64,000 nt of DNA from NCBI RefSeq assembly GCF_007859945.1, contig NZ_SJPQ01000002.1, forward strand, positions 598,279 through 662,278, in the 5' to 3' direction. The position numbers and the translations under genes are program-made. Shown here in pieces: positions 45,243 through 48,414 of this stretch (within the stretch, counting starts at the first letter, position 1; each line of letters begins with the position of its first letter). Source of the DNA: Pseudobythopirellula maris. Its GTDB lineage: Bacteria; Planctomycetota; Planctomycetia; Pirellulales; Lacipirellulaceae. The notes beneath the pieces are model-generated. The model was given only the letters and a program-made list of their open reading frames with translations. It did no database searches and was not told the DNA's origin.

Positions 45243-46277
45243 ATGACCACCCCCGCGGCCCACACGATCGAGAGCGCGCGCAGCGCCTCGGCGGCGACGC
45301 TCGCCGAGCTCTTCGCCCCGATTGCCGAGGCGCTCGGCCGGGTCGAGTCGCGTCTGCAAACCGAGCTCCGCGCCGGCGATGGCCGCCTGGCGACCGAAGA
45401 GGTCGACCGCGTGGTGCGACACGGTTACCGGCTCGGCGGCAAACGGTTGCGGCCCGCGCTCGTGCTGCTATCCGCCCGCGCCGCCGGCGAGGCGTGCGAC
45501 GACCACGTGCTGTTGGGCGTGGTGGTCGAGATGATCCACACCGCCACGCTCGTTCACGACGACGTGCTCGACGAAGCGACGCTGCGACGCCACGTGCAAA
45601 CGGTCAACGCCCGTTGGGGCAACGAGACCAGCGTGCTGCTGGGAGATTTCCTGTTTAGCAAAGCGTTTTACCTGGCGAGCACCCTGCCCACCGTCGACGC
45701 CTGCCGCGTGATCGGCGCTTCGACCGAGCGGGTCTGCCTCGGCGAGCTCAGGCAAACACTCTCCGAGGGCGACCTCGAGCTCGACGAAGAGGACTACCTG
45801 GCGATCGTCGAGGCGAAGACCGCCGAGCTGTGCGCCTGCTGCTGCTCGCTCGGCGCCCGCTACGCCGGCGCCTCGACCGAGGCGATCGACGCGCTCACCG
45901 CCTTCGGCCGCGACCTCGGCGTGGCGTTCCAGATCGCCGACGACCTGTTGGACCTCACCGGCGAAGAAGCGGCCACCGGCAAGACCGTGGGCGCCGACCT
46001 CGCGAAGCGCAAGATGACGCTGCCGCTGATCCACGCCCGCCGCGAGTTGGTCGACGGCCCGCGGCTGGCGTTCGACGAGCTGCTGCGCAAGGGCGACGGC
46101 GCGTCGCGCAGCGAAGCGTTGCGCATCGCCGAAGAAACGGGCGGCCTGGCCTACGCCCAGGAGCAAGCCGAAGCGTACGCCGCCCGCGCGGCGGAGCGGC
46201 TGGAGGTCTTGGCCGAGGGACCCGATCGCGAGGCGCTCGCGATGGTGGCGCAGTTCTCAAGCCGCCGGCGGGCTTGA
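45243..46277 (+). CDS. Long-chain polyprenyl diphosphate synthase
   Basis: This all-helical prenyltransferase adds isopentenyl units in the trans configuration. The 344 residues show the first aspartate-rich motif HDDVLD (106-110) after GGKRLRPALVLLSA and the second motif DDLLD (233-237). GKTVGADLAKRKMTLPLIHA follows downstream. The small residues before the first motif (MIHTATLV) fit a long product, so a quinone side-chain (octaprenyl-type, IspB-like) role is likely. ATG at 45243 is the natural start, 38 bp after moaC. The frame is open further upstream without family character. Confidence 0.92.
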   Translation: MTTPAAHTIESARSASAATLAELFAPIAEALGRVESRLQTELRAGDGRLATEEVDRVVRHGYRLGGKRLRPALVLLSARAAGEACDDHVLLGVVVEMIHTATLVHDDVLDEATLRRHVQTVNARWGNETSVLLGDFLFSKAFYLASTLPTVDACRVIGASTERVCLGELRQTLSEGDLELDEEDYLAIVEAKTAELCACCCSLGARYAGASTEAIDALTAFGRDLGVAFQIADDLLDLTGEEAATGKTVGADLAKRKMTLPLIHARRELVDGPRLAFDELLRKGDGASRSEALRIAEETGGLAYAQEQAEAYAARAAERLEVLAEGPDREALAMVAQFSSRRRA

Positions 46278-46299: not shown

Positions 46300-46410
46300 A
46301 ACCGGAGCCGCGCACGCAGTAAGCGGAGTGCGCCGCCAGCCCAAACGTGTTCCTGGCAAACCGTTTGCACTGCGGGCTACTCCGTTTACTTCGTGCGCGG
46401 CTCCGGTTTT
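46300..46410. repeat. Left REPIN-like inverted repeat flanking the transposase
   Basis: Arm ACCGGAGCCGCGCACG (then AGTAAGCGGAGT) starts at 46301. Its inverse, ACTTCGTGCGCGGCTCCGG, ends at 46407. The left arm contains an intact GCGCAC/GTGCGC hairpin. The whole unit matches, in inverted orientation, the element at 47130-47328, including about 20-25 bp beyond each arm. Confidence 0.85.
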
Positions 46411-46491
46411 TTCTGCTTGCCGAGGGCTGTCGAGAATTCGGCGGTCCCACAATTTCAGACAATATACTTGCGTACACTACCTGCGCCGAAT

Positions 46492-47091
46492 ATGCTCCGT
46501 GGCATGGTTCACGCTCTTCTCACCTCGACGACCTACGGCACATGGCTGCCGGGGGATACGCGTGGCTCGGTGACGCCGGTCCGCGACTACCGTCCCACGG
46601 ATGCGGCGACACCGTATCGAGTTGCTCACAACCAACGGGGCGAACCCTGGGAGCCTTCGATGCCGGGACTCTACGCCAGTGCAAGACAATCGCTCAAAGG
46701 GCGGCCGGTCTGGCTATCCGCGGGGCAAGCTCGCATCGCTATCGGCTCGATGCTCAACAAGAGCGAGCGGCGTGGCTGGCGTATCGAAGCGTTGTGCGTG
46801 ATGCGGAACCACTTCCACGCCGTGGTCGGCTGTGTCGGCGATGCGAGTTTCAAGCGGGTGCTCGCCAACCTCAAAGCGTTCGCCAGCGAGGGCCTGAACA
46901 ACCAAGCAGGTGAGCCGAGTAGATGGTGGACCCGGGGAGGTTCGGCACCCTTGCTCCGTGACGAACGCGCAATCGAGACGGCGATCCACTACGTGCTGCA
47001 CAAGCAGCAGCACCCACTTGCGCGATGGTCCGCGCGAGACGGGTTCCTCCTCCCAACAGACCCGACCACGAGAACCTATCCGCGCAAGTGA
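46492..47091 (+). CDS. REP-associated tyrosine transposase (RAYT, IS200/IS605 superfamily Y1)
   Basis: The 199-residue protein opens with ALLTSTTYGTWLPGDTRG, typical of TnpA-REP proteins. The metal-binding HUH-type motif is HFH at about 107-109 (in MRNHFHAVVG). The likely catalytic tyrosine is in AIHYVLHKQQ, near residue 167. Such enzymes cut single-stranded DNA at REP hairpins. The ATG at 46492 is used; another lies at 46504. The gene sits between two inverted copies of the same REP-type repeat. It appears intact, with no frameshift or stop. Whether it still transposes repeats is unknown. Confidence 0.88.
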   Translation: MLRGMVHALLTSTTYGTWLPGDTRGSVTPVRDYRPTDAATPYRVAHNQRGEPWEPSMPGLYASARQSLKGRPVWLSAGQARIAIGSMLNKSERRGWRIEALCVMRNHFHAVVGCVGDASFKRVLANLKAFASEGLNNQAGEPSRWWTRGGSAPLLRDERAIETAIHYVLHKQQHPLARWSARDGFLLPTDPTTRTYPRK

Positions 47092-47129
47092 AATGTGACT
47101 CTCGCTAGCATGAATCAACTCGCGTAAGT

Positions 47130-47328
47130 GACCGGAGCCGCGCACGAAGTAAGTGGAGTTGTTCGCATGGCAATCGGCTTGCTAGAGCGCACTCCCGATA
47201 GCCGTAGCGTTGTTTCGCCGTATCGACGCCGAATCATACCGCCCCACACGCTACGCATCTGTGCGATTCGCACTAAGAACACATTTTGGTTGGCGGCGCA
47301 CTCCGCTTACTTCGTGCGCGGCTCCGGC
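47130..47328. repeat. Right REPIN-like inverted repeat flanking the transposase
   Basis: The left arm ACCGGAGCCGCGCACGAAG is at 47131 and the right arm CTTCGTGCGCGGCTCCGG ends at 47327. Read in reverse, the unit aligns with the left element: the outer arm keeps the GCGCAC/GTGCGC hairpin and the GTGCGCCGCCA extension. It is about 90 bp longer internally. Together the two units form an inverted pair around the RAYT gene. Confidence 0.85.
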
Positions 47329-47361
47329 TATTTAGCGTGGATCATTTTCTGCCGATTCTGA

Positions 47362-48297
47362 TCACTCTCCCGCCTCAACGATCCGCCCCGCGATCGTCTC
47401 CGGCGCCTCTTCCGGTTCGAGATCGACGAAGCGGCACTCTGAGAGCCCGCGGAACCACGCGCCCTGGCGTTTCGCGAAACGGCGGGTGCGGGTTTTGATC
47501 CGCTCGATCGTGGTCGGCAGGTCGCTATCGCCCGCCAAGTGCTCGATCACCTCCTGGTAGCCGACCGCCTGGCTCGCGGTGCGGCCGAGTTCGTTGCCGT
47601 CGGCAGTGAGCGCGCGGACCTCGTCGACGAGCCCCTCGGCGATCATCTCTTCAACGCGAGCTTCGATGCGGCCGTGCTGTTCTTCGCGCGGGCGTTGCAA
47701 GACAAACACCCGGCACGCCTCGGCGGGGCGGCCCTCTTCGAACTCTTCCTGCTGGTGGCTGATCGGCTGGCCGGTGACGCGGTAGACCTCCAACGCGCGG
47801 ACGATCCGCCGGCTGTCGTTCGGGTGGATCTGGTTCGCCGCGAGCGGGTCGACGAGCGCCAGCCTCTCGTGCAACGCGGGCGAGCCGACCGTGGCGAGCT
47901 CCGACTCGATCTCGCTCCGCAAGTCCCAGTCGGCGGGCGGGCCCTCGAACAGGCCGCGCAACAGACACTTCAGGTAGAGCGGCGTGCCGCCGACGAACAA
48001 CGGTGTTCGGTCGCGCGAGCGGATCTCGCCGATCGTTTGCATGGCCAAGTCGAGGTATCGGGCGACGCTGAACTCCTCGTCAGGCGCCACGAGATTGATC
48101 AGGTGGTGCGGCAGCCGGCTTTGCAGATCGCGGCCCGGCTTGGCGGTGCCGATGTCCATGCCGCGGTAAACGGCCATCGAGTCGAGCGACAGCACCTCGG
48201 CGCCAAGCCGCTCGGCCAGGGCCAGCGCCACGCCGGTCTTGCCGACGGCCGTAGCGCCGGTGAGGTACCAGCAGTCTTGGGCGGGGCTAATGTCCAT
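47362..48297 (-). CDS. miaA: tRNA dimethylallyltransferase
   Basis: MiaA prenylates A37 of tRNAs reading UNN codons. The 311 residues have the P-loop LTGATAVGKTG at 12-22, the DSMAVYRGMDIGTAKP motif, PHHLINLVAPDEEFSVARY and FVGGTPLYLKCLLRG. Further on are HPNDSRRIVRALEVY and QAVGYQEVIEHL. ATG at 48297 is chosen; the frame extends to 48351 into a repeat. The end lies only 34 bp from the right REPIN. It is divergent from hisE-hisG. Confidence 0.96.
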   Translation of the reverse strand: MDISPAQDCWYLTGATAVGKTGVALALAERLGAEVLSLDSMAVYRGMDIGTAKPGRDLQSRLPHHLINLVAPDEEFSVARYLDLAMQTIGEIRSRDRTPLFVGGTPLYLKCLLRGLFEGPPADWDLRSEIESELATVGSPALHERLALVDPLAANQIHPNDSRRIVRALEVYRVTGQPISHQQEEFEEGRPAEACRVFVLQRPREEQHGRIEARVEEMIAEGLVDEVRALTADGNELGRTASQAVGYQEVIEHLAGDSDLPTTIERIKTRTRRFAKRQGAWFRGLSECRFVDLEPEEAPETIAGRIVEAGE

Positions 48298-48324
48298 AGG
48301 TTTCTGTAAGGGTACAAATTGCCT

Positions 48325-48414
48325 GTGGGAGGTGTCTCCGACACCGATCACGCCCCGCCAGCCGCAGCGGGCTCAAACACCGGTATTGGCGTCGGAGACG
48401 CCTCCCGCAGGCAA
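48325..48414. repeat. GGCGTCTCCGACGCC palindromic element, copy 3
   Basis: Left arm GGGAGGTGTCTCCGACACCGAT and right arm ATTGGCGTCGGAGACGCCTCCC flank about 45 nt in the miaA-hisE divergent gap, immediately upstream of miaA. It is the cleanest of the three copies, with nearly perfect 22-bp arms. Confidence 0.7.

Follow-up and report, generated by a model that had tools for sequence, protein, structure and literature searches.

The window, which is the whole analysed stretch of 64,000 nucleotides, contains a block of about 1 kb in which a transposase gene (46492-47091) is flanked by inverted REP pairs on its left (46302-46406) and right (47132-47327). The block lies between two convergent genes that we take to be polyprenyl synthetase-like and miaA-like. 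The features are as follows.

45243-46277, + strand: flanking gene, presumably polyprenyl synthetase-like
46302-46406, + strand: left REPIN, two inverted REPs with GAG feet pointing outward
46305-46328, + strand: REP 1 (outer), GAGCCGCGCACGCAGTAAGCGGAG; G000:C2:644583-644606 of this genome
46380-46403, - strand: REP 2 (inner), GAGCCGCGCACGAAGTAAACGGAG, with a disrupted pair in the stem; G000:C2:644658-644681
46492-47091, + strand: RAYT, a TnpA-Y1 class-3-like transposase of 199 aa; alternative start at 46504
47132-47327, - strand: right REPIN, which aligns with the left REPIN as its inverted copy
47135-47158, + strand: REP 3 (inner), GAGCCGCGCACGAAGTAAGTGGAG; G000:C2:645413-645436
47182-47272, no strand: about 90 bp confined to the spacer of the right REPIN, by alignment
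47301-47324, - strand: REP 4 (outer), GAGCCGCGCACGAAGTAAGCGGAG; G000:C2:645579-645602
47362-48351, - strand: flanking gene, presumably miaA-like, convergent with the polyprenyl synthetase gene

Exact copies of the arm CCGGAGCCGCGCACG were found at 46302 (+), 46392 (-), 47132 (+) and 47313 (-), inverted within each element as in the original prediction, while the remaining matches in the window all had three mismatches and were at or below chance level. The right element, when reversed, aligned with the left one past the arms as well, which had also been predicted, with agreement at 47 of the outer 51 nt (score 43, shuffled maximum 15). The spacer part alone, right against left REPIN, scored 18 against a shuffled maximum of 14.

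As single-stranded DNA, the left REPIN is predicted to fold to -45.9 kcal/mol (z -9.5). The single REP hairpins of the window gave values of -0.7 to -3.5 kcal/mol, no more stable than shuffled sequences, and both inner arms are damaged. This low predicted stability suggests that recognition may need the protein. The GCGCAC/GTGCGC hairpin that had been singled out in the outer arms is indeed present there, but it is not a conserved element: half of its length belongs to the spacer, it is missing from several copies elsewhere in the genome and, within the window, it was found only on the outer arms. As the recognised hairpin it is replaced by GAG-CCGC-(GC)-A-CGNAG-T-(AA)-GCGG, a structure derived from compensation between lineages.

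Upstream of the RAYT start, at 46463-46479, is the sequence TATACTTGCGTACACTA, and a near-identical motif precedes the RAYTs of related loci (L063/L073 and L041); the motif is not widespread in the genome. A promoter-like sequence upstream of the gene, ATACTTGCGTACACTA, was considered as a regulon motif and rejected, with three matches genome-wide and two for the control.

The transposase and its relatives

The reading frame at 46492-47091 encodes 199 aa with no internal stop and includes the motifs HFH (H107, H109) and HYVLHKQ (Y167, Q172), confirming that the Y1-type transposase is intact. As the relatives start at a later ATG, a product of 195 aa starting at 46504 is equally likely. The HUH and Y/Q residues are conserved among the relatives. 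Matches to profile models were below threshold, with 19.2 bits for Pfam Y1_Tnp (cut-off 23) and 39.3 bits, E 5.5e-10, for NCBIfam REP_Tyr_transpos (cut-off 80), an equivalog model that may not cover class 3. An AlphaFold2 model (pLDDT 89, built from 54 sequences) had as its top PDB match 4er8, the complex of a RAYT with a REP hairpin, followed by IS200/IS605 transposases. The residues and the model together thus indicate an HUH enzyme with a single catalytic tyrosine and the IS200/IS605 fold. The gene is present in a single copy, the next best protein in the genome being 46% identical, and the several near-identical copies typical of IS200/IS605 transposases were not found in this genome. A single-copy gene flanked by REPs of a genome-dispersed family is characteristic of RAYTs, and the predicted RAYT-type transposase with IS200/IS605 kinship is borne out by the residues, the fold matches and these flanking repeats.

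Class 3 transposases, described from few sequences, have been suggested to occupy an intermediate position between insertion sequences of the IS200 type and RAYTs. The window protein has the motifs NHFH, WWT and YVLHKQ (Y----Q) and a long conserved N-terminus, and its relatives are almost all from planctomycetes. When compared with the motif table of PMC6006769, its sequence fits TnpA-Y1/RAYT class 3 of Planctomycetes, for which Quentin et al. (2018, PMC6006769) described NH[FV]H, W[T/A], Y----Q and extended N-terminal conservation.

The best fold match is to E. coli TnpAREP (PMC8266576; PDB 4er8), a likeness that rests on the predicted model. The REP stem of that system also contains two adjacent mid-stem mismatches (PMC8266576), which here are G/A and C/A (GC opposite AA). 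The two proteins share only about 10% sequence identity and the foot of the repeat differs, and binding by the window protein is a prediction.

The repeat family in the genome and among relatives

The 24-mer GAGCCGCGCACGAAGTAAGCGGAG, with up to three mismatches allowed, was found at 18 sites in the 5.07-Mb genome and the reversed control pattern at none. A variant with a CCC/GGG stem accounted for three further arms, again with no control match. The family thus has 21 arms at 12 places, which is small for a REP family, and 9 of the 12 places are clean inverted pairs, so that the pair is dispersed as a unit in the manner of a REPIN. The genome-wide search for pairs that had been proposed originally therefore recovered the repeat outside the block, with 17 sites in 10 other places, mostly as inverted pairs. 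The feet point outward in some pairs and inward in others. The change from CCG...CGG to CCC...GGG is compensatory. One mixed REPIN (G000:C2:1082396-1082469, arms at C2:1082399/1082443) combines a CCG/CGG arm with a CCC/GGG arm. Homology between the spacer of the window REPIN and that of another genomic copy was weak (15, shuffled maximum 12).

The only other protein match in the genome is the 46% identical one, a second RAYT (L037), which is flanked on both sides by another REP pair, GAGCCGCCGGCGTNAGCCGGCGG, with 41 genomic matches and no control matches. The genome therefore holds two RAYTs, each with its own repeat family.

Related loci were examined by comparing the 350 bp upstream of the transposase gene with the 350 bp downstream in the 75 loci with usable flanks, using segment pairs about 2.3 kb away as controls. 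In 63 of the 75 loci the two sides of the gene had an identical stretch of 14 bp or longer in common, a count that is slightly inflated as a few loci are present in both source collections (e.g. L043 and L070), and none of 44 controls did. The copies elsewhere in the genome and the equivalent repeats bracketing the relatives bear out the view that the arms belong to a dispersed REP/REPIN family; a repeat occurring nowhere else and beside no relative's RAYT, which would have counted against it, was not what was found. In one locus (L049), the RAYT has tandem arrays of REP-like units on either side (1351-1474 and 2191-2314), with a period of 33 bp.

The template GAGC-N6-CGNNAG-N6-G is common to the loci. 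At least five of seven Watson-Crick pairs were present in 155 of 167 flank matches, although pairing was not required in the search. In the 47 distinct sequences, 90.3% of cells were paired (G-U allowed), compared with 59.1% after shuffling, and the covariation score was 0.684 against 0.171 for shuffled sequences (0 of 500 shuffles; at most 0.197 with slid partners). The loci that yielded the template are also those on which it was scored, except in a GAG-free test, where perfect 7-bp hairpins were collected with no fixed foot. The most frequent 6-nt loop in that test was CGNNAG (with its complement), and 51 of 60 stems had GAG in front of them. The window REP family has the loop CGNAG, which is one base shorter, and the two adjacent stem mismatches noted above. 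In the closest relative (L041/L069), a window-type stem is found with a full-length loop.

The GTAG foot of canonical REPs is absent, the foot of the window REPs being GAG after CG, CT or CC, and hence we do not assign the window protein to the canonical class 2 RAYTs. The CnGA foot of class 3 hairpins is present as CGGA, CTGA or CCGA, and over all loci the commoner form is GCGA. Such feet and genome-dispersed repeats are shared with the class 3 REPtrons of PMC6006769, the main text of which describes the hairpins only as 'atypical secondary structures'. The template and its covariation are defined here, and the shorter window loop is a further difference. The gammaproteobacterial RAYT/REP systems (Nunvar 2010, PMC2817692; Bertels and Rainey 2011, PMC3116915) likewise have a single-copy gene with inverted REP flanks, REPIN pairs elsewhere in the genome, fast gene evolution and co-change of REP and RAYT, whereas the window system lacks the GTAG foot, has a small family and gives only sub-threshold REP_Tyr_transpos matches.

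Template matches were more numerous in genomes with a RAYT match than in those without (p ~0.015), with no excess in several RAYT-positive genomes. The largest expansion seen was in G060, a genome with three RAYT matches, where 1352 template matches were found and 11 for controls.

Covariation of REPs with RAYTs and REP sharing between lineages

Across the loci, RAYT distance was correlated with REP distance (rho 0.33; 0 of 2000 permutations). The arms on the two sides of one gene are usually identical, with a median of 0 differences in 14 positions compared with 6 between loci. The two RAYTs closest to the window protein, at 59% and 57% identity, also have the REPs closest to its own, which differ at 0.3 and 2.2 of 14 positions, and RAYTs that are at most 53% identical have unrelated REPs. 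REP sequence therefore tracks RAYT sequence among near relatives, though shared descent alone can give such a correlation. In two syntenic loci, L071 of Botrimarina colliarenosi and L045 of the same genus group, the RAYTs are 62% identical and the neighbouring frames about 94%. Single-copy RAYTs, fast RAYT evolution and REP-RAYT co-change were described by Nunvar et al. (PMC2817692), and the relatives examined here agree. The RAYT at first seemed to be inverted in L044 relative to L045, but this came from a misread strand, and the loci are collinear.

The exact core of the window REP was also found in two other genomes, G058 (20 sites) and G178, and with one mismatch in a third, G162. In G162 the window REP (20 nt identical) brackets a RAYT of a second lineage, B (L179, the same as L174:982-1518), the protein being only about 34% identical to the window RAYT, and the TAA stop codon of this gene falls inside the REP. 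This RAYT-B lies between what is presumably the end of a restriction-specificity gene and an apparent zeta-toxin-like ATPase gene. The REP of L042, a relative of the window RAYT, is likewise found (23 nt exact) flanking a RAYT-B, L183, and other B-lineage RAYTs broadly carry the window REP type. In G058, none of the 20 window-REP sites brackets a RAYT found there; those RAYTs are flanked by other REP types, and the genome also holds a B-lineage RAYT (L181).

In the phylogeny, the window sub-clade (support 100/99) is separate from the B lineage, and a single joint clade of the two RAYT groups was rejected (p-AU 9.4e-6), the tested group having been defined after the REPs had been seen. The simplest reading is probably that a nested sub-clade of lineage A, the lineage of the window RAYT, adopted the REP type of lineage B; alternatively, REPINs may have been mobilised in trans or transferred horizontally. 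More generally, we put at even the chances that cognate REP families can pass from one RAYT lineage to another. In the REP orthoswitch (Nunvar 2013, PMC3686654), too, the REP class flanking a RAYT changes and REP families occur without their RAYT, but that switch arises by mutation within an orthogroup, whereas here one REP type is found beside RAYTs of two deeply diverged lineages. The window RAYT was also examined as a possible chimera with lineage B, and no segment was clearly closer to B than in its sister proteins. Two residues, A131 and R148, are common to the window RAYT and B and rare elsewhere, a lead noticed post hoc.

Nature of the block and its likely activity

Taken together, these results make it very probable that the block is a REPtron, a single-copy RAYT gene of the TnpA-Y1 class 3 kind of Planctomycetes with a copy of its cognate REPIN on either side. 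A RAYT flanked by its own REPINs is an arrangement already known, and the branch of planctomycetes to which this host belongs is little studied. Judging from the fold and from what is established for TnpAREP (PMC8266576), the protein would recognise the REP hairpin in single-stranded DNA and bind it via the GAG (CnGA) foot and the stem, and Tyr167 would cut beside the hairpin, after which the ends would be rejoined. REPINs may be excised and re-inserted when the DNA is single-stranded, e.g. in replication, and it is presumably the REPINs that spread rather than the RAYT gene itself. The 1-kb block may also move as a whole, though this is less likely to be what the protein normally does.

We consider it unlikely that the RAYT is domesticated or inactive and that the repeats are now host hairpins, such as terminators between convergent genes or sites for a host DNA-binding protein. 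The stem-breaking changes in the inner arms, the small family, the very stable long hairpin of the left REPIN and the host roles of REPs in other bacteria (PMC3686654) are consistent with it, but the frame and catalytic residues are intact and in most relatives repeats are found on both sides of the gene and change with it.

The junction of the flanking genes bears on whether the block is an autonomous IS200/IS605-like insertion sequence, with the outer arms as its ends and the whole 1 kb transposing. The comparison with relatives that had been proposed originally showed that, in 20 genomes of the same family, no RAYT lies within 1.5 kb of the homologous miaA, hence the block is specific to this lineage at the junction. 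Four of the 20 have less than about 200 bp between the two genes, and six have a homologous interval of about 750-830 bp that contains other sequence. No clean empty site could be demonstrated among these 20 relatives, which are too distant and include the six with such intervals. The absence of the block from the homologous junction would fit an insertion. An insertion sequence is nevertheless quite unlikely. While the inverted repeats bracket the block between the polyprenyl synthetase and miaA genes and other RAYT loci are mostly elsewhere, the transposase gene is single copy, no tnpB was seen beside it, the repeats occur mainly without the gene and the homologous RAYT keeps its place in Botrimarina-type genomes.

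That the arms are the chance landing of an unrelated repeat family is very unlikely: the same REP type does bracket a RAYT of another lineage, and the 20 sites in G058 have no bracketed RAYT of their own, but inverted copies lie on both sides of the gene and only the nearest RAYTs have similar REPs.

The hairpin template and the natural compensatory variants provide ready substrates for testing how class 3 proteins choose their repeats, and the matched pairs, the window RAYT with L179 and L042 with L183, offer a direct test of specificity. If REP families do move between RAYT lineages, cognate pairing would not be strictly vertical.
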